DNA of 64,000 nt, taken from Barnesiella propionica (lineage in GTDB: Bacteria > Bacteroidota > Bacteroidia > Bacteroidales > Barnesiellaceae). The notes below the pieces were generated by a model. It did not search any database and was not told where the DNA came from. It was given only the letters and a program-made list of their open reading frames with translations. Location: NCBI RefSeq assembly GCF_025567045.1, contig NZ_JAOQJK010000003.1, forward strand, positions 342,205 to 406,204. Direction: 5' to 3'. A program made the position numbers and the translations under genes. Of this stretch, positions 3 through 42,295 are shown piece by piece; within the stretch, counting starts at the first letter, position 1; the number at the start of each line of letters is the position of its first letter.

Positions 3-839
3 ATGGGCAAACATCGCACATCCGAAACTTATCGGGCTACGCTCAAAAGTTTCATGCAGTTCCGAGAGGATAAAGACCTTTTGTTGGATGAAATCAATTC
101 AGAAATGATGTTGATGTACGAGGCTTATTTACGGAACAAAGGAATCACAAAGAATAGTAGCTCATTCTATATGCGGATATTGAGAGCCGTATATAATAGA
201 GCCGTTGAAAAGGAACTGACAAAACAAAAGTTTCCGTTCAAACATGTATATACAGGGATTGACAAGACTGTAAAGAGAGCAGTATCGTTAAAGGTTGTCA
301 AAAGGATTAAAGAAATTGATTTGTCGCTTAATCAATCAGCCGACTTTGCAAGAGATATGTTTCTCTTTTCTTTCTACACTCGTGGAATGTCGTTCATTGA
401 TATGGCATACTTGAAAAAGAAAGACCTTACAAACGGCATACTCATATACCGTCGCCGAAAGACAGGACAGCAACTTTTCATCAAGTGGGAGAAATGTATG
501 CAGGAAATTGTAGATAAGTATGATACAATGGGTAATATCTATCTGCTTCCAATTATAAAAACCCCCAATGTGAATGAAAGAAAGCAGTATGAAAATACTC
601 TTCGTTTGGTTAATAATAAGCTGAAATTTATAGCAGATATTATTCACTTGCAGATACCATTATCAACCTATGTGGCTCGACATACATGGGCAAGTATAGC
701 CAAAAGCATGAACATTCCTATTTCGGTTATCAGTGAGGGAATGGGACATGATTCAGAAACAACAACTCAGATTTATTTATCTTCTTTGGATACTTCTGCT
801 ATTGATAAAGCAAATGAGTTGATATTAAAAGGGCTATAG
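3..839 (+). CDS. Tyrosine recombinase, DNA invertase type (5' end outside window)
   Basis: Tyrosine site-specific recombinase of the Bacteroides invertase type, which flips promoter segments. Counting from the first Met visible, an N-terminal SAM-like core-binding domain covers about residues 1-90 and the catalytic domain about 100-278. The visible catalytic residues are Arg127 (box I), Lys153, Arg226 in a YVAR-H motif (Tyr where most relatives have His), His249 in GMGHD, and the nucleophile Tyr258. Family members usually carry roughly 30-40 more residues before this point, so the gene very probably begins left of the window; the Met at base 3 may be internal. It stops 24 bp before a pair of perfect 19-bp inverted repeats (863-881 and 1034-1052), the classic arrangement of an invertase beside its own invertible promoter. 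The family is secure; that this enzyme acts on this segment is inference from position. Confidence 0.88.
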   Translation: MGKHRTSETYRATLKSFMQFREDKDLLLDEINSEMMLMYEAYLRNKGITKNSSSFYMRILRAVYNRAVEKELTKQKFPFKHVYTGIDKTVKRAVSLKVVKRIKEIDLSLNQSADFARDMFLFSFYTRGMSFIDMAYLKKKDLTNGILIYRRRKTGQQLFIKWEKCMQEIVDKYDTMGNIYLLPIIKTPNVNERKQYENTLRLVNNKLKFIADIIHLQIPLSTYVARHTWASIAKSMNIPISVISEGMGHDSETTTQIYLSSLDTSAIDKANELILKGL

Positions 840-862
840 AAAATGTTTAGCGACTATAGCTA

Positions 863-881
863 TCTCTTTGTAAGAGACGGA
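863..881 (+). repeat. Left inverted repeat of invertible segment
   Basis: TCTCTTTGTAAGAGACGGA, matched exactly in inverse orientation at 1034-1052. The repeat is itself a near-palindrome (TCTCTT-tgt-AAGAGA), as expected for two head-to-head recombinase core sites flanking a short crossover spacer. Confidence 0.9.
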
Positions 882-890
882 CTTACAAAA

Positions 891-920
891 GCAAAATTAT
901 GAAAAATATTTCATTACAAA
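891..920 (-). promoter_or_regulatory. Bacteroides-type promoter inside the invertible segment
   Basis: On the minus strand there is TTTG (917-920) and TAATTTTGC (891-899), a full match to the -33 TTTG / -7 TAnnTTTG consensus with 17 bp between. In the present orientation it reads leftward, antisense to the 3' end of the recombinase gene. Confidence 0.7.
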
Positions 921-1033
921 GAATATTTGGCAAAAAAAACTTTTGTATAGTCTGAAAATAATTTGAGAATGTTTACTTAATCCCCTATTTGCAACATCTA
1001 AATTCTTGATTATAAACAAACTTTTGAGAATAA

Positions 1034-1052
1034 TCCGTCTCTTACAAAGAGA
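1034..1052 (-). repeat. Right inverted repeat of invertible segment
   Basis: TCCGTCTCTTACAAAGAGA, the exact reverse complement of 863-881. With the next base it forms the palindrome GTCTCTT-aca-AAGAGAC, a likely strand-exchange site. Confidence 0.9.
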
Positions 1053-1115
1053 CAGATAGGAGATACCCGAAAATCCTATAAACAGAGTAGGGCTTAATCT
1101 ATTCAATATTTTATT

Positions 1116-1250
1116 ATGGAAGATTTATTTTCGTGTAAAATGGTTGGAAAGGGAATTTATGAAACCCTCGAAGAACAGTATGATGTTTACACCGTTGATG
1201 ATGATTGGTCACGGAAACATGATGCAAGTCCAAAAATCATCAATGATTAA
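1116..1250 (+). CDS. Candidate RiPP precursor peptide (44 aa)
   Basis: Small ORF that I translated by hand; it starts at ATG 1116 and ends with TAA 1248-1250. It lies between the invertible promoter and a radical SAM peptide maturase, the usual place for a precursor gene. Residues 1-25 resemble a leader (acidic, with GKGIYETLEEQYDVY). The C-terminal half carries VDDDWSRKHDASPK, with Trp31-Ser32-Arg33. An aromatic residue, any residue, then Arg/Lys/Asp/Asn is the pattern cross-linked by three-residue cyclophane-forming radical SAM enzymes (darobactin/triceptide-like), so a Trp31-Arg33 or Trp-Lys34 bridge is conceivable. There is no Gly-Gly cleavage motif. I do not recognise the peptide family. 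It could instead be a chance or unrelated small ORF; gene context is the main support. Confidence 0.45.
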   Translation: MEDLFSCKMVGKGIYETLEEQYDVYTVDDDWSRKHDASPKIIND

Positions 1251-1260
1251 GGTATCAGAA

Positions 1261-1292
1261 AGGCTGTCTTGAATTTGAGGCAGCCTCTTTTA
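1261..1292 (+). terminator. Hairpin with T-run between precursor and maturase
   Basis: AGGCTGTCTTG (1261-1271), loop AATT, and TGAGGCAGCCT (1276-1286) pair over 11 bp with a few G-T wobbles, followed by CTTTTAA. It is probably a leaky terminator that keeps precursor mRNA in excess over maturase mRNA, as is common in RiPP operons. Confidence 0.6.
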
Positions 1293-1338
1293 AGTACATT
1301 GATTTTAGATTTATAACTATATTATCAGATATTAAAGA

Positions 1339-2775
1339 ATGGAAGATTTTTCAACTTTGCTTAGAAACGACACCTTGATTCAATCTAATCCGTATAGAAT
1401 AATAACATATAATAATAAAAATATAATTGTTATACCTAATAGTGGAGCATGGATTATAGGAGGGCACATAGTATTATCGCTTCTTGATAAATGTAAAATT
1501 CCTATTCCATATATGGATATAAAAAATATTTTTCCTAATGCTAATATTCAAGATATTATAGAAACTTTGTATTATTCTGGAATTATTCTTCTAGATGATA
1601 AATGTAGTACAGATCAAATTGTAGCTGAAGAAAAATATAAATCTTTAGAGGTTGCACCGCGACTTTTAGTCTTAAAATATACAAATCATTGTAATTTAAG
1701 ATGTTCTTATTGTTATGCATATAAGGAAGAAACATTCAATGATAATCTTAACTATAAAGATATAGAAACTGCTGTAAAACTGATATCTGACTCTTATGGG
1801 AAAAATATAACTGTTGTATTTCATGGGGGAGAGCCACTTTTACGTTTTAAGGACATGAAACACGATGTAATATCATTGTTGGATAAATTCCCAGATATTC
1901 AATTTAGTATACAGACAAACGGAACTTTAATGAATGATGAAATATCTGTATTCTTGAAAAAACACAAAATTAGTATAGGTGTCAGTATAGATGGTATTGA
2001 TGAGATAAGTAATAGCCTTAGATGTTTTACTGGAGGATTGACTTCATGTAATAAAACATTAGACGGGATTAAATGCCTTTTTAAACATAATAATCAACCA
2101 AGTGCAAGTATTGTAATGACAAAGAAAAATAAGGATGATATCCTAATTACGATGCAGAGATTATTCGAAATAGGGATACGCCACTTTGTCGTACTCGATT
2201 ATTTTCCAGCGGGTAGAGGGAAAGAGGGGAAAGACCATCTTGCATTAAACTTAGAAGAAAATATTGCGGTTAGGAGAGATATATTATTATTCATTAATGA
2301 TCATAATGCGAAACAAACTGATAGTAAGAATTTAATAACAGAAAGGAGGTCTATTCAACTGATGAAGAAGATTGTATATTGGCGAAGCCTATATATGTGT
2401 TCAGAATCTCCATGTGGTGCAGGTAGAAGAATGTTGGCTTTAGGAGCAGATGGGAATTTGTATCCTTGCGATGAATTTATCTCTAACGATAAAGAATTTG
2501 TAATTGATCATGTTTCTAATATCACGAATCTAGCAGATAGTTTAAAAAATAGTAAAGTAGTACAAAAGTGTTACGCTCATAGAATTGAGAATATATCAAA
2601 ATGCTCTAAATGTGTTTGGAGAAATATATGTGAATTCCATTGCGCTGGCAACTCATTTTATTTCAATGGCTCGTTGAATCAGCCATCTTCACTTTGTGAA
2701 TATTTTCATAGAATGATTCCAATGACAATGGAGCTATTGTATGAAGAAAGAATAAATCCCAAAAATATTTTATAA
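1339..2775 (+). CDS. Radical SAM/SPASM peptide maturase
   Basis: A 478-aa radical SAM enzyme, expected to use an iron-sulfur cluster and S-adenosylmethionine to modify a ribosomally made peptide. The first ~100 residues form a separate domain, probably a PqqD-like peptide-recognition element (inferred from size and place, not from a clear motif). The radical SAM core has the cluster motif CNLRCSYC at Cys118, Cys122 and Cys125 and GGEP at 163-166. A C-terminal SPASM region has Cys354, 359, 377, 411, 422, 425, 431, 435 and 453, enough for two auxiliary clusters. It follows a small candidate precursor ORF and precedes an ABC exporter by only 3 nt, forming a compact RiPP operon. Base composition is markedly AT-rich compared with the flanking core genes, suggesting transfer. 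The exact chemistry (cyclophane, thioether or other) cannot be read from the sequence. Confidence 0.85.
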   Translation: MEDFSTLLRNDTLIQSNPYRIITYNNKNIIVIPNSGAWIIGGHIVLSLLDKCKIPIPYMDIKNIFPNANIQDIIETLYYSGIILLDDKCSTDQIVAEEKYKSLEVAPRLLVLKYTNHCNLRCSYCYAYKEETFNDNLNYKDIETAVKLISDSYGKNITVVFHGGEPLLRFKDMKHDVISLLDKFPDIQFSIQTNGTLMNDEISVFLKKHKISIGVSIDGIDEISNSLRCFTGGLTSCNKTLDGIKCLFKHNNQPSASIVMTKKNKDDILITMQRLFEIGIRHFVVLDYFPAGRGKEGKDHLALNLEENIAVRRDILLFINDHNAKQTDSKNLITERRSIQLMKKIVYWRSLYMCSESPCGAGRRMLALGADGNLYPCDEFISNDKEFVIDHVSNITNLADSLKNSKVVQKCYAHRIENISKCSKCVWRNICEFHCAGNSFYFNGSLNQPSSLCEYFHRMIPMTMELLYEERINPKNIL

Positions 2776-2778
2776 CAA

Positions 2779-4563
2779 TTGAAACATTTTCTCAAAATCC
2801 AGTCATGGAAAAATATTTGTCGATTTATATCTTATATATGGGGAATTGATAAGTATCATTTGCTTGGTAATATTGCTATCAGATTAGCATCAATTTTTGT
2901 TCCTATTATTTCTCTATATGTTGGTAAATTAATAATTGACGAGTTAGTATATTCTAAAGATTTTAATAAAATTATATTATACCTTGGCATAGAAGCAATA
3001 ATTGTAATATGCTCAAATATACTATCTCGCATATCTTCTTATCTAAATCAAAAATTAAATTATAATTATGAACTATATACATCAACAAAAATAATTAAGC
3101 AATTTAATATGTTGTCGTTACAGCAAATAGAGAATGCCGAAATAAAAAGTAAACTCTACTTGGCTAAAAATGAATCTCATGATGGGAGTTCATTAATCAA
3201 TGAACTATTGGGAGGGACAGAATGTGCGTGTTCCATAATTTCGTTGTCTATGGCAATTATCGCATATAATCATATTGCTATTTTATTTTTTATAATAACA
3301 GCGTTTATCATTTTTATTAGTGAAACACATTTCTATTCATATATATATAAACTTCAAAGAAAATGGATTCCGGAAAGAAGAAAAACCGACTACTATTATG
3401 ACTTATTAACAACTGATGAATATTATAAAGAAATTAAATTATTGAGATCCCTTTCATTCTTCTCAAAACTATTCTTCAAAAAGAAAAAGAAATTCCAAGA
3501 AGAAAATTTGCGTATTCAAAAGAAACGATTAATAGTAAATATATTGTTGTATACTATAAATCTCGCTGTCTACTATTATATCTATTTTATATTCATAAAT
3601 AATGTATTAATAGGATTGATTACAATAGGAACATTAACTTATATAAGTGGAATATTATTAACATTAAGGAATAGAATAAATACTTTCTTTAATAGTGTTG
3701 CATGGCTAAATGACCGTGCTTCATATTTAAATGATTTTTTTTCTTTTTTTTCATTACATTCAAGGGAAGAAATAATTACAACGAAGGTGGATTGTTGTAT
3801 AACCAATGCTGATGGACTTGTATTTTCACATGTCGGATACAAATATGAAAATCAAAATAATTGGGCTGTATATGACTTGTGTTTTCATATAAAAAAGGGA
3901 GAAAGAGTGCTTATTATGGGGCTAAATGGGTCCGGAAAAACTACCATAATCAAGCTTATTTGTAAATTGTATACTCCGACAGAAGGAAAAATATACTTAA
4001 ATGGAGAAAACATAGAGAACATAGAGAACAATTACTATTTTCAACAAATAGGTGCTATTTTTCAAGACTATATTAAATATGAAATGACTGTTGCAGAAAA
4101 TATTAGCTTAGGAGACCTAAACCATTTTAATGATCTTTCAAAGATTGAATTCTGTACAAATATGAGTAGAATCGATAATCTAATAGATTCTTTACCAAAT
4201 AAATATCAACAACAACTAGGAAAGCTATTTAAGGATGGCATTCAACTATCTGGAGGTGAATGGCAAAAAATAGCCATTGCGAGATTACTATATGGGGATC
4301 ATTCAATTTTATTATTAGATGAACCATCTTCTGCTTTAGATGTATTGTCTGAACGAAATTTATATCAAGAGCTATTAAGTAATCAAACAAAGAATGGCAA
4401 AACAGTCATCATTGTATCGCATAGAATTAGCAATTTACGAGATATTAATCATGTAATATTTCTAAAGAAGGGAATAATTATTAAAAATGAAATATTGGAA
4501 GAGCCTATAAAGAATGATAACTTCCATGATGACATATTTAATGCTTATAGTGAAGAACATTGA
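2779..4563 (+). CDS. ABC exporter, fused membrane and ATPase domains
   Basis: A 594-aa half-size ABC exporter of the peptide/lipid-exporter type, likely to carry the modified peptide out. Hydrophobic membrane segments lie within residues 30-325. The ATPase domain has Walker A GLNGSGKTT (381-389), Q-loop FQD (428-430), signature LSGGE (490-494), Walker B ILLLDEP (510-516) and the switch His548. There is no N-terminal C39 peptidase domain, so leader removal must be done by another protease. The start is TTG at 2779, three bases after the maturase stop; the codon group just upstream is an in-frame stop and the next Met is at residue 111, so TTG is the only start giving a complete protein. It is translationally close-coupled with the maturase and shares its AT-rich composition. 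Substrate assignment is inference from context. Confidence 0.85.
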   Translation: MKHFLKIQSWKNICRFISYIWGIDKYHLLGNIAIRLASIFVPIISLYVGKLIIDELVYSKDFNKIILYLGIEAIIVICSNILSRISSYLNQKLNYNYELYTSTKIIKQFNMLSLQQIENAEIKSKLYLAKNESHDGSSLINELLGGTECACSIISLSMAIIAYNHIAILFFIITAFIIFISETHFYSYIYKLQRKWIPERRKTDYYYDLLTTDEYYKEIKLLRSLSFFSKLFFKKKKKFQEENLRIQKKRLIVNILLYTINLAVYYYIYFIFINNVLIGLITIGTLTYISGILLTLRNRINTFFNSVAWLNDRASYLNDFFSFFSLHSREEIITTKVDCCITNADGLVFSHVGYKYENQNNWAVYDLCFHIKKGERVLIMGLNGSGKTTIIKLICKLYTPTEGKIYLNGENIENIENNYYFQQIGAIFQDYIKYEMTVAENISLGDLNHFNDLSKIEFCTNMSRIDNLIDSLPNKYQQQLGKLFKDGIQLSGGEWQKIAIARLLYGDHSILLLDEPSSALDVLSERNLYQELLSNQTKNGKTVIIVSHRISNLRDINHVIFLKKGIIIKNEILEEPIKNDNFHDDIFNAYSEEH

Positions 4564-4850
4564 TACTCTACATTAATTATATATATACTAACATATGATT
4601 CCCTCTCCAAGATATTGATTGTCAGTTTTAAAGCTGGTATTGTAGTTGTCGGATAACTTATGTTAACTATAGTTATGAAGATTCAATTATTGCAACAGTT
4701 GTAACAGTAATTGAATCTTCGTTGAAGTGCCTTGATGCTGTTACATCCTTTATACTCCAAAATCTATTTCTATACCTAAAAAGGTATAAAAGATTTTCAT
4801 TACTATCTCAAGTATATGAACTTTTATCTTTTTACTACCTCATTTTCTTC
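4564..4850. other. Non-coding gap with nested inverted repeats
   Basis: There is no gene here. The gap lies between the rightward ABC gene and the leftward integrase remnant. It contains a perfect 12-bp palindrome TAACTATAGTTA (4664-4675) and a perfect 13-bp inverted repeat (4677-4689 and 4708-4720). The 4720-4850 part shows nothing else I can name. Confidence 0.6.
4677..4720. repeat. Perfect 13-bp inverted repeat, 18-nt spacer
   Basis: GAAGATTCAATTA (4677-4689) and TAATTGAATCTTC (4708-4720) are exact reverse complements. The loop TTGCAACAGTTGTAACAG is itself nearly self-complementary. No T-run follows, so it is not a standard terminator; it could be a protein-binding site, a cruciform or an end-of-operon hairpin. 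Confidence 0.7.
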
Positions 4851-6072
4851 TTACATTGCCATTGAAATACCATTAAACGATTGATTAAGCTGATTGCCGA
4901 ATACCGTCAAATCCTTGTCAATCTTTTCGGTGGTTACTTTAGCATACTTCTGCGTGGTAACAATATTCGTATGACCTAAAATCTTGCTCACACTCTCAAT
5001 CGGCATACCCTTACTTTGTGCAAGGGTAGCGAATGAATGACGACTTGAATGGAATGATATGTCTTTCGTAATTCCGCACTCTTTTATCATAGTTTTCAAT
5101 GGCTTACAGATATTCCAATAGTTGAGATTGGGGAATATGAACTTATCCTCCTGGAATGGCTCATAACGCTTTATAATCTGCATAGGAATATCCAACAGCT
5201 TCACTTGAAACGGCACTTTCGTCTTATGTCGTTTCGACAATATCCATTTCTCGCCGTTCACATCCACAATGTCATCGGTAGTCAGTTCCTTAATATCCAC
5301 AAACGACAAGGCAGTAAAACTTGCGAAAACAAACAAATCACGGATATAAGCCAACTTGCTATTCGCAAACTCATGTGTCATTACAGTCTTGATTTCATCT
5401 TCCGTAAGGTATATACGGTCTTTTATATTCTGATTGACCCTATATTGTGCAAATGGGTTTCTCGGCGTTTGAACATTGTAATGAGCCTTTGAAACAATCG
5501 TTTTCAGCCACATACAGTTAGCCCATATACTGCCATTATGAAACCCTGCATCCGTTGATAGATAGATTTCATACTCCTTGATAAAATCGGGAGTAAGTTC
5601 GAGCATAGATATATCATTTCGCTTGTGATTCTTCTTGAAGAAGGATGCCAAATGATTTCTTGCCCTTACTCTGACCTGATAGGAACTCAAAGCACGGTCA
5701 ATACCGATACGCTTCTTGAAACTTTCGTTATCCTTATCAAATGCACCGAGCAGGGTTTCATACTCCGTTCCGATGCCCTGATAGGCGTTGCGACCATATC
5801 AGCCGTAACATACGCCTCCTGTCCGACAGGCGCTGATAGTGCTTGATGATTTGAGCCTTGATATCATCCAATGAGAGGTTAATGTCACGAGCCTCTTTAC
5901 TCTTGCCTTTGGCTAGATTGCCCTTTGCATCCCAAAGTTCTTTTAGGATAGAACATTTGCAACTGAATTGGGCTACAGAACCGTTGATTGTCACTCTTCC
6001 CATAATGGGGACAACGCCATTTTTCTCCTTGCTTCCGTTCACGTAGAACAGCACCTTAAATGTACTTCGCAT
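4851..6072 (-). pseudogene. CTnDOT-type tyrosine integrase, broken by two 1-nt deletions
   Basis: Remnant of an integrase of about 400 aa of the kind that inserts Bacteroides conjugative elements. The N-terminal arm-binding part (from ATG at 6072, beginning MRSTFKVLFY) reads in frame to about 5820. One base is then missing near 5816-5821 (expected AGG-GAG, found AGGAG) and another near 5791-5793 (expected GTC-CGC, found GTCGC). After both, the frame reads NAYQGIGTEYETLLGAFDKD and continues into an intact catalytic domain down to 4851. That domain keeps HSSR, LGH and the Tyr nucleophile in TTQKYA; box I has Ala where Arg is classical, which is normal for this subfamily. The unbroken C-terminal stretch alone would lack its arm-binding domain. 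It probably marks the right end of an integrated element that can no longer move by itself. A sequencing error could explain one shift but less easily two. Confidence 0.85.
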
Positions 6073-12812: not shown

Positions 12813-12887
12813 GGGCGTTTAGCTCAGCTGGTTCAGAGCATCTGCCTTACAAGCAGAGGGTCGGCGGTTCGAATCCGTCAACGCCCA
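12813..12887 (+). tRNA. tRNA-Val (UAC), copy 1
   Basis: A 75-nt cloverleaf: acceptor GGGCGTT/AACGCCC, D arm, anticodon stem TCTGC/GCAGA with loop CTTACAA (anticodon TAC), T arm GGCGG-TTCGAAT-CCGTC and discriminator A. The 3' CCA is not encoded. Confidence 0.97.
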
Positions 12888-12943
12888 CTTCCAAAAATTA
12901 CCGAGCGAGGTAATTGATATAGGACATAGAAAACTGATAAAGA

Positions 12944-13018
12944 GGGCGTTTAGCTCAGCTGGTTCAGAGCATCTGCCTTACAAGCAGAGGGTCGGCGGTT
13001 CGAATCCGTCAACGCCCA
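12944..13018 (+). tRNA. tRNA-Val (UAC), copy 2
   Basis: Identical in all 75 bases to the copy at 12813, 56 bp downstream; probably cut from the same primary transcript. Confidence 0.97.
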
Positions 13019-13071
13019 CTTCTTTATTTTAATCTATATATATTTCAGAGTATTTCGGTACTCCTCTTTTC

Positions 13072-13146
13072 GGGCGTTTAGCTCAGCTGGTTCAGAGCAT
13101 CTGCCTTACAAGCAGAGGGTCGGCGGTTCGAATCCGTCAACGCCCA
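13072..13146 (+). tRNA. tRNA-Val (UAC), copy 3
   Basis: Third identical 75-nt copy. The two spacers (56 and 53 bp) are unrelated in sequence, so the repeated unit is the tRNA alone. Confidence 0.97.
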
Positions 13147-13287
13147 CTTTCGAATGGCACTTGTGATTTTCCGCAGGTGTTTTTTAGTTTATCACCCCCT
13201 CCATTCGAGGCCAGAACCAAAATTACTTCGCTTTTCGCTTATATATAATTTTCTTCTTCGGTTCGGGATAATATTAACAAAGGAACT

Positions 13288-33405: not shown

Positions 33406-33696
33406 TACTCATTTTGCTATTATCTTTCCTGATATCCGTTACTTTTATTCCCGGCAAACATCCACTTTCGAAATCCGAATGTAATGAGTATTTAAACTGA
33501 AACTCATTAAAATAAAAATCCCGTGTTAAAAATAAAAAAAGGAGTAGGATCAATCATAAATATTAAATATATTAATATATTTGCCGATATATAGATTTTA
33601 AGAAATTACATGTTGGTCCCCTCCTCCCAACATTAGACTTCATCTGCTACAAAATAATAAAATATAGAACAATAGATATTGTTTTTAACAAGGAAC
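33406..33696. other. Non-coding gap before the sigma factor
   Basis: No gene, no clear TAnnTTTG promoter and no hairpin that I would call a terminator. It is AT-rich towards the right. Confidence 0.5.
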
Positions 33697-34347
33697 ATGA
33701 ATAAAGAGCTTGAAAATAAGAATAATGAATTGTCTATCGAAACAAACAAAAAACATTTTGTTGATAATATATTAGCAGAATCACAGCTATTAACCGATCT
33801 GCAGAATGACAAATCCAAAGCTTTCGATATCATTTTCAATAAATATTACAAAGACATGGTCCTGTTCGCCCAAAATTATATCGAAGCACGTACAGAAAGC
33901 GAAGATATAGTACAATCGGTATTTCTTAACTTATGGAATCACCGCAAAGATTTATATATCAACACATCTCTCAAATCTTATCTGTTAAAATCCGTTCGCA
34001 ATTTATGCCTCAACCAATTGAGACATTCCGATATACGCCGGGAATATCAAAAATATATGACCGAAGAAAATAATATTTTATCCGAACATAATACAGAAAA
34101 TTATCTCCTTTATTCGGAACTTCATGCCCATATTAATTCTGCAATGAAAAAACTGCCCGAGAACCAACAGGTGGTTTTTATTTTAAGCAGAATTAATGGC
34201 TTGAAATACAAAGAAATATCACAAAGGCTCAATATATCTGAAAGGACCGTTGAAGTGCGGATAAGTAAAGCGTTAAAAACCTTGCAACATTTACTTCAGG
34301 ATTTCCTCATTTCATCTCTTATATTTCTTTTTTTTAAAATTCTCTGA
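33697..34347 (+). CDS. ECF-type RNA polymerase sigma factor
   Basis: A 216-aa sigma-70 family factor of the ECF type that Bacteroidetes use to switch on glycan loci. The sigma-2 region is about 38-110 (KAFDIIFNKYYKDMVLFAQNYI, SEDIVQSVFLNLW). The sigma-4 helix-turn-helix is near 155-205 (LPENQQVVFILSRINGLKYKEISQRLNISERTVEVRISKAL). I start at ATG 33697, which is preceded by AAGGAAC; the longer reading begins with a TTG at 33679. A hydrophobic C-terminal tail (FLISSLIFLFFKIL) is odd for a sigma factor but seen in some relatives. It is followed by the FecR gene, its probable anti-sigma partner. Confidence 0.9.
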   Translation: MNKELENKNNELSIETNKKHFVDNILAESQLLTDLQNDKSKAFDIIFNKYYKDMVLFAQNYIEARTESEDIVQSVFLNLWNHRKDLYINTSLKSYLLKSVRNLCLNQLRHSDIRREYQKYMTEENNILSEHNTENYLLYSELHAHINSAMKKLPENQQVVFILSRINGLKYKEISQRLNISERTVEVRISKALKTLQHLLQDFLISSLIFLFFKIL

Positions 34348-34400
34348 AAAATATTGTGGTTTTTTTTTCGAGAAGTGTCTTATATACAGAACGTCAAAAA

Positions 34401-35435
34401 ATGGATTTATCAAAAGAAAATATTGACATCCTTATTATCCGGTATTTATCGGACGATATTTGCCCTGAAGAACGCAAAGTTTTAGAATCCTGGGTAAAAG
34501 AACAGGATACGAACCACACATATTTCCAACAAATGAAAAATATGTGGGAAATAACAAATCCGGCACTTGATCCGGATTCCATCTCTGTATCACAAGCCCT
34601 CAAACAAGTACACAAACTTGCAGGCATAAAATCCCCAAAAGAACAATTTTTCATTTACTGGCAACGTATTGCAGCGATTCTCATATTACCACTTATTGCC
34701 ACGTTTTTAATTATATTATTTTATACATCCGCCACCCAAGAATATAAGCAAATCGTATATCAGGAAATTTCCGCTCCGTATGGTTCCCGGCTTCATATAA
34801 ATTTACCGGACGGTTCCATCGTTTACCTGAATTCAGGCGGAAAACTTAAATTCCCTACTATATTCAAAGCCGGAGAACGTAATGTTTATTTAAACGGTGA
34901 AGCTTATTTTGAAGTTGAATCTGACAAATCAAATCCGTTTGTTGTACATACAAATGCCATAGACGTTAAAGCTACCGGAACCATATTTAATGTAGAAGGA
35001 TACGATAATGATACTCTTTATGCGGTTACTATGATGAGTGGCAAAGTACAAGTATCGATAGATAAAAAACACGAAACAATAGATATTACAAAAGGAGAAC
35101 GCGTCAGTTACAATGTAAAAAAACATAATTATACTGTAGAAGATGTAGATCCTTACAAATGGTGCGCCTGGAAAGACGGTAACCTTATTTTCAGGGACGA
35201 ACCACTCATCAATGTCCTCAAAAAAATAGGACAGGTTTATAATGCAGAAATAATTGTACAAGACACCGCTCTTTCGAAACATTTATACAGAGCCACTTTT
35301 AAAAATGAATCATTAGACGATATATTAAGGCTGATAAAAAAAACCGTACCTCTATCTTATATTGAGAAAGGAAACATACGAGGTAACGACGGAACTTTTA
35401 CCAAGCGATGTATCATCGTCGAAAGATTGAACTGA
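34401..35435 (+). CDS. FecR-family anti-sigma regulator
   Basis: A 344-aa inner-membrane anti-sigma factor. The N-terminal cytoplasmic part (about 1-80) holds the sigma factor; a membrane helix lies at about 86-110 (IAAILILPLIATFLIILFYT); the periplasmic FecR domain follows (about 125-245, SAPYGSRLHINLPDGSIVYLNSGGKL, NVYLNGEAYFEV); and the last part has the DUF4974-like ending (about 270-340, NLIFRDEPLINVLKKIGQVYNAEI). The start at 34401 removes 15 unlikely residues. By family logic it senses ligand-loaded SusC through the STN domain of that receptor and frees the sigma factor. Confidence 0.9.
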   Translation: MDLSKENIDILIIRYLSDDICPEERKVLESWVKEQDTNHTYFQQMKNMWEITNPALDPDSISVSQALKQVHKLAGIKSPKEQFFIYWQRIAAILILPLIATFLIILFYTSATQEYKQIVYQEISAPYGSRLHINLPDGSIVYLNSGGKLKFPTIFKAGERNVYLNGEAYFEVESDKSNPFVVHTNAIDVKATGTIFNVEGYDNDTLYAVTMMSGKVQVSIDKKHETIDITKGERVSYNVKKHNYTVEDVDPYKWCAWKDGNLIFRDEPLINVLKKIGQVYNAEIIVQDTALSKHLYRATFKNESLDDILRLIKKTVPLSYIEKGNIRGNDGTFTKRCIIVERLN

Positions 35436-35604
35436 CAATTAGATTAAAAAACCTTAAAAAATAACGCTTATGAAAATATAAATTAGAAAACACTATGAAA
35501 AAACAGAAGTGGAAATTCTCCCAAATCCCCACTTCCAAGTGCATGCTAGATAGCAATGAGATAAAAACCATTTAGTCTTTACTAAACTAACATATTACAA
35601 ATGT
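35436..35604. promoter_or_regulatory. Leader region of the SusC gene
   Basis: Between fecR and susC. It holds a possible 26-codon ORF (35495-35575, beginning MKKQKWKFSQIPTSKC) whose DNA includes an inverted repeat GAAGTGG/CCACTTC. No TAnnTTTG box is seen, consistent with use of the ECF sigma factor encoded just upstream. Function of the small ORF is unproven. Confidence 0.35.
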
Positions 35605-38600
35605 ATGAATTATATTTCTATTCACAAAAATAGGAGGCGATATAATATACCCTATCCTATTCCAGGACAAAAAGCCTTCATCTGCTTATTTTTACTCATT
35701 ATTTCAAGCACATTAGCCGCATTCGGTAATAATAATCCGTCACAAGACGGAACCTTAAGTCTGAACATGCAGAATGTTACCGTAGAGCGAGTGCTGAACC
35801 AAATCGAAACTGAAACGGACTACACATTTCTCTATAACAAACAGATGGTAGACGTTACCAGAAAAGTAAGTATAACCGTTAAAAACAAACCTATTAAAAT
35901 CGTCCTGGCAAGTCTGTTCGACGGTTCAGGAGTGTCTTATTCAATAGACGGAAAACAAATCGTCTTAAGCAAAGAAGAACAAAAGACACGGTCTCAAAAC
36001 AGCCATAGAATTTCAGGAACCGTAGTAGATGCAGTAGGCGAAGCAATTATCGGTGCGACTGTTATAGTAAAAGGAACCAGTAACGGTACAGCTACCGACA
36101 TCAATGGGGAATTTAAGTTAACAGCTCCGTCCGGCGGAACCTTATCTGTTTCATATATCGGATATGTTCCTCAGGAATTAAAAATCGGAAACAAAACGGT
36201 ATTCAACATCACATTAAACGAAGATACGAAAACATTGGAAGAAGTTGTAGTTGTCGGTTTCGGAAAACAAAAGAAAGAAAGCGTTATTGGAGCTATTCAA
36301 TCGGTAAAATCAGAAGACATTAAACTGCCGACTACGAATCTCTCCAACACTTTTGCAGGTCGTATAGCCGGTATAATCTCTGTCCAGAAATCCGGTGAAC
36401 CAGGAGCCGATGGGGCCAATTTCTGGATCCGCGGCGTAGGTACATTCGCATCGGCACAAAGCCCTTTGATACTTATTGATGGTACAGAATCAAGTTCTTA
36501 CGATTTAAATGCTCTTGCTCCTGAAGTTATTGAAAGCTTTTCGGTATTGAAAGATGCGACGGCCACGGCGTTATACGGTTCACGGGGCGCAAACGGCGTT
36601 ATGTTGGTAACAACGAAGTCCGGACAATTGGGGGGTAAACCTACCATCAATATCCGTATCGAAGGCCGTATGTCCATGCCCACTCAAATACCCAAAATAG
36701 CCGATGCTTATACATACATGAATATGTTTAACGAAGCTGTTGAAGCCCGCACTCCGGGAGCAGCCCCCATATTCTCGGACGATCAAATCAACGGAGTCAA
36801 GAATCATCTGGATCCTTATATGTATCCCAATATAGACTGGTATGGAGAAATGTTCAAAGATGTCACCTACGATCAGGCTGTTAACCTGAATGTTTCGGGA
36901 GGCGGAAACCGGATGGATTATTTCATCAGCGCCACCTTCAATAATGATATGGGTATGGTAAAAACATCTAATGATAACCCATTTAAGAACAATATATCTA
37001 ATTTACGATATTCATTCCAGTCTAACGTCAATGCTCATATCACAAAAACGACAAAAGTGGGCGTTAAACTGAATATGCAGATACAGGACTATAAAGGACC
37101 GTCCAATAGCATCAGTTATATATTTAACCGGGTTATGTGGGCTCCTCCCGCTTTATATCCCATCAAGTTCCCGAATATACCGGGAACGAACTACTCAGCT
37201 TATGGCAATAAGTCCGGAGGCCCGCAAAACGACCGTTATGCAAATCCTTATGCCGAGTTATCCGCTGGAATTGAAGAACGGTTCCGGACAACCGCCATGG
37301 CCGCATTTACGTTTGATCAGGATTTAAAATTCATCACACCAGGATTAAAAGTAAGCGCTCTTTTTTCTTTGAAAAACTTCAGTTCCACTACTTGCAGCCG
37401 TACTTTTGTCCCATCTTATTTCCAGATCGACCCGAACGCATTCGGTATAGAACAACCGGAAGGAGAATATCCATATGTACTCAAAGCCGTGAACGATAAT
37501 GGAACCAATGCTATTACGGCAAAAAATTCAAGCTCGGGAGACAGGTTACTGAATACGAATATTTCCATTAATTATGAACGAAAGTTTCTCAAAGTACATG
37601 ATGTAGCCGCCCAGTTGGTATATTTACAACGGGGTTATTACAAAAACACTCCGGGAAGTGCCAGTTATAACGACGCATTGGGAGAACGGAATCAAGGGTT
37701 GGCAGGACGTTTAACCTATGATTTTGACAAGCGTTATTTCTTTGAATTCAACTTCGGGTATAGCGGTAGCGACAATTTTGTAAAAGGTAAACAATTCGGA
37801 TTCTTCCCCTCTTACGCCCTTGGATATATTATTTCCAATGAAAATTTCTTCGCACCGTTAACCGACGTTGTAAGTTTGCTAAAGATCAGAGGTTCATACG
37901 GAACCGTAGGTAACTCCGCAAGTTCTATAAGATTCCCCGGTATCACCAATGTTACTATGAATGGAGCCGGATATGCATTCGGAGAAAACTTCCAGAAAAC
38001 GCCTAACGGAGCTATTGTATCGGCTTACGGAAATGAAAATGCGACATGGGAAGTTGCCAAGAAAACAAATGTAGGTATTGAATTAGGGTTATTCGATCAA
38101 AAAGTTTTGCTCATCGCAGACTATTTTTATGAAAACCGTAACAGTATCTTAATGCAACGGAAATCCGTAGCTGCTACCACCGGTATCGGTGGTGCCACAG
38201 CATTGGCTAATATCGGACGTGTAAAAAATCAGGGGATAGACATGTCTTTAGAATACAATCATGCATTCCGTAAAGATGTCATACTATCTGTAAAAGGAAA
38301 TCTTACTTATGCAGTCAATGAGCTGGTTGATAAAGACGAGCCATTTTATAAATGGGATTATCAATATGAGAAAGGCGGCCCGCTAAACAGAATCGGTCCC
38401 GCTTATATTGCCGACGGATTGTTCAAAGACGAGAATGATATCAAAACCAGCAAGGACCAATCGGCCGTTATGCCCAATATTAAACCCGGAGACATAAAAT
38501 ATAAAGACCTGAACAACGATGGAATAATCAATGAATACGACCGTAAATATATAGGAGATCCATATATTCCGCAAATAATTTACGGTTTCGGCGGCTCTCT

Positions 38601-39042
38601 TCAATACAAGAAATGGGATTTCTCCGTATTCTTCCAGGGAGCAGCTAAAGTATCTATTTATCTGGATAATATACATCCGTTCGGTACATATTATTCGAAC
38701 GTCCTCCAATTCGTAGCTGACGATTACTGGTCGGAATCCAACCCGAATCCCAATGCTTCTTATCCAAGGCTTGCACATACAGTCGGAGCCGAAAATACGA
38801 ACCAGAAATCAACATTCTGGTTAAGAAGCGGAGCTTTCTTACGCTTGAAAAACGCGGAAATAGGATTTAACCACAAATTTATGAGAATATATCTTTCAGG
38901 CTCCAACTTATTAACATTTACAGGCTTCAAATATTGGGATCCGGAAATTGGAGGAAGCAATAACGGAAGCGATAGCAACGGGAACGGTCTTGTGTATCCA
39001 TTGCAAAGAGTTATTAATCTCGGTATTCAATTTAAATTCTAA
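35605..39042 (+). CDS. susC-like: SusC/RagA TonB-dependent outer-membrane receptor with STN domain
   Basis: A 1145-aa outer-membrane importer for a glycan or similar ligand. A signal peptide is near 20-45. The STN signalling domain is at about 53-118 (LSLNMQNVTVERVLNQIE... KIVLASLFDGSGVSY), followed by a carboxypeptidase-like domain (about 134-205, ISGTVVDAVGEAIIGATVIVKG). The plug begins after EEVVVVGFGKQKKESVIGA and contains the SusC signature SFSVLKDATATALYGSRGANGVMLVTTK. The barrel runs to the terminal aromatic pattern (INLGIQFKF). The STN domain, absent from SusC proteins of hybrid two-component loci, matches the sigma/FecR pair upstream. SusD follows 5 bp later. Confidence 0.95.
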   Translation: MNYISIHKNRRRYNIPYPIPGQKAFICLFLLIISSTLAAFGNNNPSQDGTLSLNMQNVTVERVLNQIETETDYTFLYNKQMVDVTRKVSITVKNKPIKIVLASLFDGSGVSYSIDGKQIVLSKEEQKTRSQNSHRISGTVVDAVGEAIIGATVIVKGTSNGTATDINGEFKLTAPSGGTLSVSYIGYVPQELKIGNKTVFNITLNEDTKTLEEVVVVGFGKQKKESVIGAIQSVKSEDIKLPTTNLSNTFAGRIAGIISVQKSGEPGADGANFWIRGVGTFASAQSPLILIDGTESSSYDLNALAPEVIESFSVLKDATATALYGSRGANGVMLVTTKSGQLGGKPTINIRIEGRMSMPTQIPKIADAYTYMNMFNEAVEARTPGAAPIFSDDQINGVKNHLDPYMYPNIDWYGEMFKDVTYDQAVNLNVSGGGNRMDYFISATFNNDMGMVKTSNDNPFKNNISNLRYSFQSNVNAHITKTTKVGVKLNMQIQDYKGPSNSISYIFNRVMWAPPALYPIKFPNIPGTNYSAYGNKSGGPQNDRYANPYAELSAGIEERFRTTAMAAFTFDQDLKFITPGLKVSALFSLKNFSSTTCSRTFVPSYFQIDPNAFGIEQPEGEYPYVLKAVNDNGTNAITAKNSSSGDRLLNTNISINYERKFLKVHDVAAQLVYLQRGYYKNTPGSASYNDALGERNQGLAGRLTYDFDKRYFFEFNFGYSGSDNFVKGKQFGFFPSYALGYIISNENFFAPLTDVVSLLKIRGSYGTVGNSASSIRFPGITNVTMNGAGYAFGENFQKTPNGAIVSAYGNENATWEVAKKTNVGIELGLFDQKVLLIADYFYENRNSILMQRKSVAATTGIGGATALANIGRVKNQGIDMSLEYNHAFRKDVILSVKGNLTYAVNELVDKDEPFYKWDYQYEKGGPLNRIGPAYIADGLFKDENDIKTSKDQSAVMPNIKPGDIKYKDLNNDGIINEYDRKYIGDPYIPQIIYGFGGSLQYKKWDFSVFFQGAAKVSIYLDNIHPFGTYYSNVLQFVADDYWSESNPNPNASYPRLAHTVGAENTNQKSTFWLRSGAFLRLKNAEIGFNHKFMRIYLSGSNLLTFTGFKYWDPEIGGSNNGSDSNGNGLVYPLQRVINLGIQFKF

Positions 39043-39047
39043 GAACA

Positions 39048-40991
39048 ATGAAATTGATATATAAAATCATAACCATGCTTTTTTGTTCCGGTTTTTTATT
39101 AACCGGATGCAATTATCTGGATGTGGAACCCGAAAAGAAAGGTTCGTTGGAAGAAGCATTTTCTACCGTCACCAACGCCCGCAACTTTCTTTACGCTTGT
39201 TATTCTTACATGCCGCATTATTCATATTTGAACGATGCACCCGAATTGATCGGCGCAAGTGACGAACTCTGTCTCACTTCCCAATGGGCCACCACCTGGC
39301 ACTTTGGAAAAGTACCTAATATAGGAGGACAAACGGCTGCCGATCCGCTGTTTAATTACTGGTCTCACTTTAAAAGTGAAACCCAGCCCGATCGTTGTAT
39401 TGCATATAATTTATATGGTGCAATACGCCAATGTTATACTTTTTTAAACCGCATAAAAAGTGTTCCGCAGATATCGGATGACAATGTGAACATGTGGAGT
39501 GCAGAGGCTAAGTTCCTTATCGCCTACTACCATTATTGTTTGTTACGCCTATACGGACCTATCGTTATAATCGAAGAAGAAACTCCATTTGAAGGTCCGG
39601 AAGAAGTAATGTATCCCAAACGCCAGCCTTACGACAAATGTGTAGAATGGATAGCTAATCTGTTGGACGAAGTTGCATTTATATTGCCCCCCAGACAAGC
39701 ATCCAGTGAATTCGGGAAACCGACCAGTGTTGCTGCAAAAGGTATAAAAGCGCGTATGCTATTATATGCAGCCAGCCCTTTATTTAACGGTAATGCCGAA
39801 TATTACAGCAATTTCACCAACAAGGACGGAGAATCGTTGATGGATTTGGAGTATAAAAAATCGAAATGGCTGGCCGCTTTAACTGCTACAGAAGAAGCTA
39901 TTAATTTAGCCCACGATAATGGTTACAGTTTATTTGAATGTCCTAAAATACCACAGGGAGCTACCGATAAAGAAAAAGCATATTTAACAGCCCGGTATAT
40001 GATTGTGATGCAACCCAGTGAGGGAAATACAGATGTTATCTGGACTTACACCGGAAGTGCAACATCTCTACAACAATTCAATACGGCGAAAGGTATCTCT
40101 ACCGGATCTACAACCGTCCCTTACGGTGGCATATCGCCTTCGTTCCAAATGGTAGAAACCTATTATACCAAGAACGGATTACCCATTGACAAAGATCCGG
40201 AATATAACTATTCACGTCGATACGGTTCCGCCGTAGATCCTGAAACAGGAGAAACGACCGCACGATTGAACCTGGACAGGGAACCTCGTTTCTATGGACA
40301 AATTGCATACGACCGTTCCAAATTCGAATCCGATGGAATCGACGGCACGTCATCTGCCAAACCATTGAGACTGTACATGCGTATGGGTGAAGTAAATCCG
40401 GTCACCGGACTATCTAACGGTAACGATCCATTGAAAGACAACATAGCTCCGAATGGTTATATATTAAAGAAGCTATACCACCCTTCTACGAGTTTCAAAG
40501 ATAATAAGGTAGCTCAAAAGAACTATGGTATGCCTCTTTTAAGATTAACTGAACTTTACTTGAACTATGCTGAAGCTTATTACGAATATTATGAAAAACT
40601 GGATGGAATAGCCTTATTCTACTTCAATGAGATAAGACGCCGGGCCAATATTCCCGATGTAGACGATGCATGGCAAGGGATCGAAGGAAAAGACTACAGA
40701 GAAATTATTCGCCAGGAAAGAACTATCGAACTGATAGGAGAAGGACACCGTTTCTTCGATGCACGCCGCTGGAAAACAGCCCACCTCACTTTCTCTAAAG
40801 TACAGAAGCGCTGGAACTGCTTCGCTTCCGGTTTCTCATCCAGCAATGTGCAACCGGCCGCAGACTACCTCACGGTCAGGAATAGCAACGAACCACCAAA
40901 AGCCTTTGAAGTGCCTAAACACTATTTATATCCCATCGACTCCAGAGACGTAGATACGAATCCAAACATGGTACAAAATCCTGGCTGGTAA
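39048..40991 (+). CDS. susD-like: SusD/RagB-family surface glycan-binding lipoprotein
   Basis: A 647-aa lipoprotein lid of the SusC importer. Lipobox LLTGC gives Cys21 at the mature N-terminus (NYLDVEPEKKG is a typical SusD start). The TPR-rich body includes the typical WSAEAKFLIAYYHYCLLRLYGPIVI and the C-terminal ELYLNYAEAYYEY, FFDARRWKT and YPIDSRDVDTNPNMVQNPGW, all hallmarks of the RagB/SusD family. It lies 5 bp after susC and is followed by a long palindromic hairpin (41005-41038). Confidence 0.95.
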   Translation: MKLIYKIITMLFCSGFLLTGCNYLDVEPEKKGSLEEAFSTVTNARNFLYACYSYMPHYSYLNDAPELIGASDELCLTSQWATTWHFGKVPNIGGQTAADPLFNYWSHFKSETQPDRCIAYNLYGAIRQCYTFLNRIKSVPQISDDNVNMWSAEAKFLIAYYHYCLLRLYGPIVIIEEETPFEGPEEVMYPKRQPYDKCVEWIANLLDEVAFILPPRQASSEFGKPTSVAAKGIKARMLLYAASPLFNGNAEYYSNFTNKDGESLMDLEYKKSKWLAALTATEEAINLAHDNGYSLFECPKIPQGATDKEKAYLTARYMIVMQPSEGNTDVIWTYTGSATSLQQFNTAKGISTGSTTVPYGGISPSFQMVETYYTKNGLPIDKDPEYNYSRRYGSAVDPETGETTARLNLDREPRFYGQIAYDRSKFESDGIDGTSSAKPLRLYMRMGEVNPVTGLSNGNDPLKDNIAPNGYILKKLYHPSTSFKDNKVAQKNYGMPLLRLTELYLNYAEAYYEYYEKLDGIALFYFNEIRRRANIPDVDDAWQGIEGKDYREIIRQERTIELIGEGHRFFDARRWKTAHLTFSKVQKRWNCFASGFSSSNVQPAADYLTVRNSNEPPKAFEVPKHYLYPIDSRDVDTNPNMVQNPGW

Positions 40992-41004
40992 TAATATCAC
41001 CACA

Positions 41005-41038
41005 AATATATGTACGGAGATATCTCCGTACATATATT
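41005..41038. terminator. Perfect 34-bp palindrome after susD
   Basis: Each 17-base arm (41005-41021 / 41022-41038), built around GTACGGAGAT|ATCTCCGTAC, is an exact complement of the other, with no loop. No T-run follows. It is likely an mRNA-stabilising or attenuating hairpin that keeps SusC/SusD expression above that of the enzymes. Confidence 0.7.
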
Positions 41039-41118
41039 ACCCATTGAAACAAACAAAATCTTATCATACCAGCAAAGTTTTCCCGAGTAAATATAAAATG
41101 TCATAACTTCATCACAAT

Positions 41119-42279
41119 ATGAATAAATATATTATTCTCTCGCTCCTGATAGTTTTTCCTTTTCTGGCCCAGTCCGGAAATTTCAAAATTACCCACGGAC
41201 CGTATTTACAACACGTTTCAGAAAATGAAATAACTATAAAATGGACGACTAACAAACCTTGTAAGTCCTGGGTAGAATACGCTCCGCAAAAACAGGGTAG
41301 CTTCTACAAGACCGTTCCTCAGAGAGCCTATTCATCACACAATGGCCTTATAGATGTCGATACGGTACATTCGATTCATATACGCGGACTGGAACCCGGT
41401 ACTAAATATTTATACAGAGTACTCTCTCAGGAAATTGAAGATTTCCGTCCCTATCGTCCGAAATTAGGGGAAATAATATCTACCGATATCTATAAAAAAC
41501 CTTTAACATTTTCCACTTTAGATCCGGCAGAAAACGAAATACGGATGCTTATGATAAACGATATACACGGCAATAATGCCCTACTGTCGAAATTATTGAG
41601 CATTGGAAATATAAAAAAACAGAACCTTATTGTTTTTTGCGGAGACATGTGCAACTATGTAGGGAGTCAAAAAGACATTTTCAATGGTTTCCTGGATTGT
41701 TCCATCAATGAGTTCGCCTCCCAGCAACCGTTCATATATGCACGTGGTAACCATGAAATAAGAGGGGCATACGCCCGTAACTTCCCCCAATACCTGGCCA
41801 ACGAAACAGGGAAATTTTATTACTCTTTTATACGTGGTGATATTTTCTTTATCGTACTGGACGGCGGAGAAGACAAACCCGATTCAGACATAGAATATTC
41901 AGGCTTGGTCGATTTTGACAACTATATGAAAGAACAGGCAGAATGGTTAAGAGAAGAAGTGAATAGCGAAAAATATAGGAATAGCCGGTACCACATCGTC
42001 ATTTCACATATTCCGTTCACACAAAACGGCTGGGCAGGTGAAATACGGTTACGTAAAATGCTCAATCCCATATTGGAAAATGCAGGAATCGACCTTATGC
42101 TGAGCGGCCATTACCATTCATTTTCATTCTGGGAGAAAGGAAAAGCAACCAATTATCCGATAATTATTAACTCCAGCAAATCGGTTCTTAATCTGGTAAG
42201 CAACGGACAATCCCTGCAAGTAAAAATAGTTGACGAAAACGGAAAAACACTTATGAACCAACAAATAATAAAACCATAA
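41119..42279 (+). CDS. Purple-acid-phosphatase-like metallophosphoesterase, paralogue 1
   Basis: A 386-aa exported phosphoesterase. Signal peptide about 1-17, leaving Gln18 first. Then a fibronectin-like purple acid phosphatase N-domain (about 22-132, YLQHVSENEITIKWTTN). The calcineurin-like catalytic domain has all metal ligands: Asp148 and His150 (NDIHGN), Asp176 (CGDM), Asn211-His212 (GNHE), His297 (SHIP) and His331/His333 (GHYH). The reaction is presumably hydrolysis of a phosphate ester on an exported or captured molecule. Two homologous paralogues lie downstream (48269 and 49827). It has its own short leader after the SusD palindrome and is 16 bp upstream of the GH20 gene. Confidence 0.88.
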   Translation: MNKYIILSLLIVFPFLAQSGNFKITHGPYLQHVSENEITIKWTTNKPCKSWVEYAPQKQGSFYKTVPQRAYSSHNGLIDVDTVHSIHIRGLEPGTKYLYRVLSQEIEDFRPYRPKLGEIISTDIYKKPLTFSTLDPAENEIRMLMINDIHGNNALLSKLLSIGNIKKQNLIVFCGDMCNYVGSQKDIFNGFLDCSINEFASQQPFIYARGNHEIRGAYARNFPQYLANETGKFYYSFIRGDIFFIVLDGGEDKPDSDIEYSGLVDFDNYMKEQAEWLREEVNSEKYRNSRYHIVISHIPFTQNGWAGEIRLRKMLNPILENAGIDLMLSGHYHSFSFWEKGKATNYPIIINSSKSVLNLVSNGQSLQVKIVDENGKTLMNQQIIKP

Positions 42280-42295
42280 ACGATTTACATAAATT

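Follow-up and report, generated by a model that had tools for sequence, protein, structure and literature searches.

The first 6 kb of a 64,000-nucleotide stretch of Barnesiella propionica DNA (contig NZ_JAOQJK010000003.1, positions 342,205 to 406,204; the window) probably hold a phase-variation cassette, in which a tyrosine recombinase flips a promoter segment that controls an operon for a small peptide, a radical S-adenosylmethionine (SAM) enzyme, and an ATP-binding cassette (ABC) exporter. By sequence comparison, the switch is of an ordinary, well-supported kind, and the cargo is unusual. Flipping of this particular segment and its control of the operon are predicted from sequence, and the radical SAM enzyme is the proposed partner of the peptide.

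The promoter segment and its recombinase

The first-pass annotation of this DNA described perfect 19-bp inverted repeats directly after a DNA invertase gene, and both elements are borne out. The left arm, TCTCTTTGTAAGAGACGGA, occupies positions 863–881 on the plus strand, and its exact reverse complement, the right arm, occupies positions 1034–1052 on the minus strand; extended to 857–881 and 1034–1058, the arms are 92% complementary. The 152 nt between the arms (882–1033) constitute the putative invertible segment. Allowing up to three mismatches, the 19-bp arm is unique to these two sites in 64 kb, compared with a chance expectation of 0.02 matches on average and two copies in 0 of 100–200 shuffles. 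When the 560-nt stretches 3′ of this and related recombinases were mononucleotide-shuffled (198 shuffles), the top inverted-repeat score was at least 11 in five cases and did not exceed 15, and the window scores 19. Each arm is built around a palindromic core, TCTCTT-TGT-AAGAGA, that, when one mismatch is allowed, is found at only these two places in 64 kb and is kept in relatives. The exact repeat was also sought in viral contigs, where it had no match.

Inside the segment, a Bacteroidales-type promoter (891–920) is present as annotated, and its direction can now be added. The −33 box TTTG (920–917) and the −7 box TAATTTTGC (899–891), spaced by 17 nt, lie on the minus strand, and the promoter points toward the recombinase and away from the downstream operon. 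No TAnnTTTG box is found on the plus strand of positions 840–1339. Because the minus-strand promoter faces the recombinase and a plus-strand box is absent from this interval, the assembled orientation looks to be OFF for the operon.

The recombinase gene (3–839, plus strand) encodes the C-terminal 278 residues of a tyrosine recombinase, the 5′ part of the gene lying beyond the window, and its frame is open over all 278 residues. The protein matches PF13102 with 65.4 bits and PF00589 with 24.1 bits, the latter under the gathering score of 27.1. Residues R127, K153, R226, H249, and Y258, which we take to be the catalytic residues, are invariant across seven aligned sequences, including that of the window. 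The left arm begins 24 nt past the final base of the recombinase stop codon.

The same module was sought around related recombinases in two pools of loci. The first pool drew on 12 viral loci. A search of 393 Bacteroidales genomes at 1e-85 added 41 matches from 29 of them, with 40 regions taken, and among nine genomes of the nearest genus found, five held 12 matches in all and gave seven further regions. From 28 plasmid and 12 phage records, 10 plasmid and 6 phage regions were taken. With five plasmid regions near-identical to locus L189 left out, this pool comprised 71 loci including the window, of which five were too short and 66 were scored; L144, with a short GC-rich spacer, was excluded by hand from the repeat count. 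The second pool came from 70 of 251 genomes with matches at 1e-95; 60 of the 108 matches were taken and 56 were long enough. The score used to select repeats is blind to sequence, and the pooled rows are related, some of them closely, so the counts are not independent.

An inverted repeat scoring at least 11 was found in 45 of 66 first-pool and 32 of 56 second-pool loci. A CTCTT-N3-AAGAG core, for which at least 8 matching positions out of 10 were required at the best offset, is present in 42 of the 45 first-pool repeats (23 of 2250 shuffled arms) and in 29 of the 32 second-pool repeats (12 of 1600 shuffled arms). The three middle bases of the core are of 24 kinds, and the two arms of a locus agree on them in 45 of 45 cases, an agreement that is partly built into the selection. 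In the second pool, the cores of the L253 and L271 repeats do not resemble the motif, and these two repeats probably arose by chance. The recombinases for which no repeat was scored (21 of 66 and 24 of 56 loci) may serve another purpose.

In these relatives the −7 box sits near the inner edge of the segment, in either orientation. By this box alone, 31 of the 45 first-pool promoters face the recombinase and seven the cargo (three of these rows being one locus), with seven uncalled. The 32 second-pool loci divide into 22 OFF, 5 ON, 1 with both, and 4 uncalled. Shuffled segments yield a call of any orientation in 12% (first pool) and 10% (second pool) of cases. The excess of OFF states agrees with published switches, of which 4 of 96 cases were predominantly ON (PMC8748976).

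The first-pass annotation had read the segment as an invertible promoter and suggested looking among relatives for the same repeats in both orientations. The relatives share the type of repeat and a promoter box in place, and two related loci are naturally inverted. The first inversion is seen in pMMCAT plasmids, which carry two such segments in tandem between one recombinase and a capsule operon; the recombinase of the L189 pMMCAT record is 63% identical to that of the window. In NZ_CP072238 (L204), the second segment, 216 bp, is exactly reversed with respect to L189 at 100% identity, and by eye its −7 box then faces the capsule operon. Of 20 records matching the pMMCAT query, 17, including that of L189, cover at least 80% in one piece, and two further matching records, from one species, end inside the repeats of the first segment.

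The second inversion is in a restriction-modification locus, L229, with a layout like that of the window: a recombinase, 29 nt, a repeat, and a 145-nt segment. This segment matches those of L131, L134, L135, L231, L232, and L235 only as the reverse complement, at 91–94% identity, and the flanks of L229 match these six loci with 92–97% identity over 300 nt downstream and 96–98% over the recombinase ends. A like relation of reversed segments (90%) is observed for L136, which carries a different cargo. In addition, 5 of 47 recombinase matches in genomes have a contig end within the 160 nt that follow, and none of the 47 has one within the 400 nt that precede, a difference that mixed segment orientations would explain.

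Invertible promoters adjacent to an invertase are already known in Bacteroidales from antibiotic-resistance (IP-ARG) and glycan loci (PMC8748976). Similar to the window, these switches have an invertase directly upstream, inverted repeats, and −33 TTTG and −7 TANNTTTGY boxes, and they are mostly OFF. They differ in cargo, which is glycan synthesis or resistance rather than a peptide-radical SAM-ABC operon, and in that sequencing reads show both of their orientations, whereas the window is known in one assembled orientation. The tree of invertases in that paper includes a pMMCAT invertase. Tsr19 (BF2766) of Bacteroides fragilis is also described as a tyrosine recombinase that inverts a promoter immediately downstream with a −7 TAnnTTTG box, but it drives an exopolysaccharide operon and acts on a distant promoter as well (PMC4747536); the likeness here is one of description. 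An association of recombinase groups with repeat groups has been reported (PMC11892184).

The peptide, the radical SAM enzyme, and the exporter

The genes downstream of the segment are found in the order given by the first-pass annotation. The first is a 44-residue open reading frame (ORF; 1116–1250, plus strand), a candidate precursor peptide that is conserved and was assigned to no family in the family matching. Its cluster holds three member sequences on 16 contigs, that of the window perhaps among them. One further homologue shares 82% identity with the peptide along its whole length, much as the radical SAM enzyme shares 81% with its own best homologue. The peptide contains a single cysteine and carries no known core motif. 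Between this ORF and the enzyme gene lies a terminator-like hairpin with a T tail (1261–1286, plus strand; z = −3.8), one of three terminator-like sites found in 800–4900, where 1.1 are expected.

The second gene (1339–2775, plus strand) encodes a radical SAM/SPASM enzyme of 478 residues that may have an N-terminal domain resembling a RiPP recognition element (RRE; RiPP, ribosomally synthesized and post-translationally modified peptide). The CX3CX2C cysteines C118, C122, and C125 are invariant in 16 aligned sequences, as are nine SPASM-type cysteines (C354, C359, C377, C411, C422, C425, C431, C435, and C453). The enzyme is above cutoff for none of the 25 NCBIfam models listed, and its scores for maturase equivalogs are under cutoff for PapB (155 of 340), SCIFF (102 of 425), and CbpB (157 of 375).

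The AlphaFold model of the enzyme has a mean predicted local distance difference test score (pLDDT) of 81, with low values at the SPASM cysteines. Its N terminus folds into four strands followed by three helices, and residue blocks in 11–90 have mean pLDDT of 81–95. The top Foldseek match of the model is CteB (5wgg; E 1.5e-20), which we take to be the SCIFF maturase. By VIA-align, CteB and TigE (8vpo) are aligned over model residues 17–471 and 7–470, respectively; both share the radical SAM/SPASM fold and an aligned N-terminal domain, but they are ~17–21% identical to the window enzyme and act with a different precursor. The aligned N-terminal part of CteB is presumably its RRE. The highest VIA-align score belongs to the sulfatase maturase anSMEcpe (PDB 4k38 and kin; Z 31.8 over 349 residues), above CteB. 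Unlike those of CteB and TigE, the alignment of anSMEcpe starts only at residue 106 and leaves out the N-terminal domain, and the sulfatase maturase model scores 120 of a 349 cutoff. Two of these observations weaken the assignment of the enzyme as a peptide maturase: its top match by this measure is a sulfatase maturase, and the N-terminal domain falls in the parts outside residues 99–457 that, by the tool's own account, are barely tested. Identity as a viperin (PADLOC models, 63.8 bits) was rejected: NCBIfam peptide-maturase models give a higher score (157 bits), and the alignments to CteB and TigE also cover the N-terminal part.

The third gene (2779–4563, plus strand) encodes an ABC exporter with fused permease and ATPase (PF00005, 105.7 bits) that appears to lack an N-terminal peptidase domain: its matches to TIGR01193 and TIGR03796 begin only at profile positions 156 and 159, and no C39 peptidase is among its Pfam matches. 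We take the C39 peptidase to occupy the N-terminal part of these two models. Leader removal must therefore come from elsewhere. The GC content is 0.30 in the enzyme gene and 0.27 in the exporter gene versus 0.40. Taken as a whole, the conserved small ORF, the hairpin before the enzyme gene, and the predicted maturase-like fold back the earlier suggestion of a peptide-maturation locus and are consistent with it at the level of sequence and model.

Beyond the exporter, a second, different tyrosine integrase, recognized by domain matches, occupies positions 4851–6072 on the minus strand in two frames (5758–6072 and 4851–5690). It is an apparent pseudogene and may belong to the cassette as its far end. 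Its DNA is 80% identical to a Phocaeicola massiliensis plasmid record, OY726017. In L151, a related locus described below, the far end of the cassette holds an unbroken 406-residue integrase whose start resembles, by eye, that of the second integrase of the window; attachment sites of the L151 element were looked for and gave no clear answer.

Cargo of related switches and distribution of the enzyme

Four more loci have radical SAM genes at most 7 kb beyond the switch. In L083, whose switch is ON, two such genes and a fragment of another are present, the first directly preceded by a 28-residue Cys-rich ORF. L084, with its switch OFF, is the sole locus of the four in which the radical SAM gene comes first. 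L142, also OFF, has three radical SAM genes by profile and a fourth by motif, along with a 75-residue ORF that ends in a Trp/Asn-rich stretch and matched no family. L151, for which the −7 box gave no orientation call, has a FibroRumin-like maturase (345 bits of a 400 cutoff) and a 74-residue Cys-rich ORF (17.5 of 45). The switch transcript would reach the radical SAM genes in L083, L142, and L151, where other genes come first. Like the window, the FibroRumin system (NCBIfam TIGR04136/TIGR04135) as seen in L151 combines the same type of switch with a peptide ORF, Cys-rich in L151, followed by a maturase; no FibroRumin model, however, is among the 25 listed for the window enzyme.

Radical SAM cargo accounts for 6 of 45 first-pool rows (five distinct loci), 0 of 32 second-pool loci, and 0 of the 45 loci without a scored repeat (21 + 24), some second-pool regions being shortened by contig ends. 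An enrichment of such cargo behind the switch was dropped on these counts. On a tree of 73 recombinases, the radical SAM label takes five gains or losses to explain, four or more of them forced by well-supported branches, and it is no more clustered than random labels (shuffled mean of 4.9 changes). Because the number of changes is as high as for random labels, cargo evidently changes hands.

Other loci place different systems behind the switch, including capsule genes (by annotation) and surface proteins (by eye). A scan for defense cargo covered 13 proteins of 10 loci. In L086 (7285–9575), the proteins behind a like switch match ZorA with 788 bits and ZorB with 269 bits, making this Zorya locus a candidate phase-variable anti-phage defense. 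Type II/IIG restriction-modification genes lie directly behind the switch in L131, L133, L217, and L236, the locus of L131 being the one inverted in L229, and Snf2-type helicases are the cargo in L136, L221, and L227. L199 has a weak type III restriction match, and L214 has no match. These observations lead us to favor, if only somewhat, a portable invertase-promoter module that serves as an interchangeable ON/OFF head for costly Bacteroidales conflict systems, with radical SAM (RiPP) cargo recurrent and taken up more than once, beside restriction-modification and Zorya-like systems.

The radical SAM enzyme, searched by its own patterns, had no relative in genome and viral contigs. In an alignment-based scan of genome contigs, the best 80 of 348 loci were all under 40% identity, with the top locus at 34%; no recombinase match at 1e-8 was found among these best 80, many of which are cut by contig ends, and an exporter match at 1e-20 was found among the first 15 of them in L003 only. 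A viral scan gave three distant loci, and plasmid records gave distant matches only (<60% identity). The enzyme was absent from 393 Bacteroidales genomes at 1e-30 and from nine genomes of the nearest family at 1e-25, both weak negatives obtained without a positive control. Judged from the gene taken as asnS, the nearest genomes are 78% identical. With no match in the 393 genomes and a best species-genome locus at 34%, the radical SAM operon is probably a rare accessory island.

Elsewhere in the window, genes for a sigma factor, an anti-sigma factor, and SusC-like, SusD-like, metallophosphatase-like, and hexosaminidase-like proteins are seen by eye in a row at 33679–43948, and three tandem tRNA-Val(tac) genes lie at 12813–13147.

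Proposed mechanism, alternatives, and implications

In the proposed mechanism, the tyrosine recombinase would recombine the two repeats at their CTCTT-N3-AAGAG cores and so invert the intervening DNA. As assembled, the sole recognized promoter is directed into the recombinase gene from its 3′ end, and the operon would be silent; in the flipped orientation, it would read through the right repeat into the 44-residue peptide ORF. A leaky terminator at 1261–1286 would then yield abundant peptide message and smaller amounts of message encoding the radical SAM maturase and ABC exporter. Using its N-terminal domain to hold the peptide, the maturase would introduce a cross-link into it, and the finished product would leave through the exporter; this product probably plays a role in antagonism or signaling toward other bacteria.

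The alternative that most deserves weight, although we regard it as unlikely, keeps the switch and gives the radical SAM enzyme another substrate, as in a sulfatase maturase, the small ORF being a regulator or unrelated. The lack of a family or known core motif in a peptide with one cysteine fits this alternative, as do the sulfatase maturases in the top rows by Z. Moreover, in the L086 switch a 48-residue ORF adjoins the repeat, yet the operon encodes Zorya proteins, so a short ORF at the head of such an operon is not necessarily a precursor; that ORF and the 44-residue peptide do not, however, align. The near-equal identities of the peptide and enzyme homologues, the hairpin that separates the two genes, and an N-terminal domain that aligns with CteB and TigE and is absent from the sulfatase-maturase alignments all speak for a peptide maturase instead.

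The remaining alternatives concern the switch itself. It is improbable that the switch is locked, with repeats and promoter as relics and the operon silent or driven from elsewhere. One orientation is known at this locus, the 5′ end of the recombinase lies beyond the window, and the second integrase is split into two frames, but the arms are perfect over 19 bp, both promoter boxes are present, and the recombinase retains its conserved catalytic residues in an open frame. Slightly less probable again is a recombinase encoded elsewhere that flips the segment in place of the neighboring one; master invertases do act at distant sites in B. fragilis (PMC4747536), and the genome is represented here by the 64-kb window, but related recombinases carry a like repeat directly downstream in the 45 and 32 loci counted above. 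We give very little credence to the repeats being attachment or terminator sequences of a mobile element with no regulatory switch. Low-GC genes between two integrases would suit such an element. Against it, relatives place the promoter box just inside the segment whichever way it faces, and two related loci are naturally inverted. The phase-variation cassette with a peptide-maturing cargo thus retains our preference.

The switch type itself is known (PMC8748976, PMC4747536); its putative modified-peptide cargo we did not find in print. No example of a radical SAM or RiPP gene downstream of a switch of this type turned up in the literature searched, although the main catalogue of gut invertible promoters (PMC6543533) could list cases. 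A survey of Bacteroidales RiPP clusters (PMC10352776) does not, in its main text, mention inversion, phase variation, integrases, or recombinases, and the main texts of PMC11892184 and PMC10939037 contain no peptide-system terms. The accessible part of PMC10773633 names a phage radical SAM gene and cites an invertible-promoter catalogue without joining the two.

If the proposed mechanism is correct, production of a modified peptide would be under the control of stochastic DNA inversion, and within a clonal population only some cells would produce the peptide weapons or signals. Such clusters, being mostly OFF, would look silent in culture, and their products would be missed unless the switch were locked ON. 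The cassette would thereby offer a direct handle on whether gut Bacteroidales make antagonistic or signaling peptides in a subset of the population.
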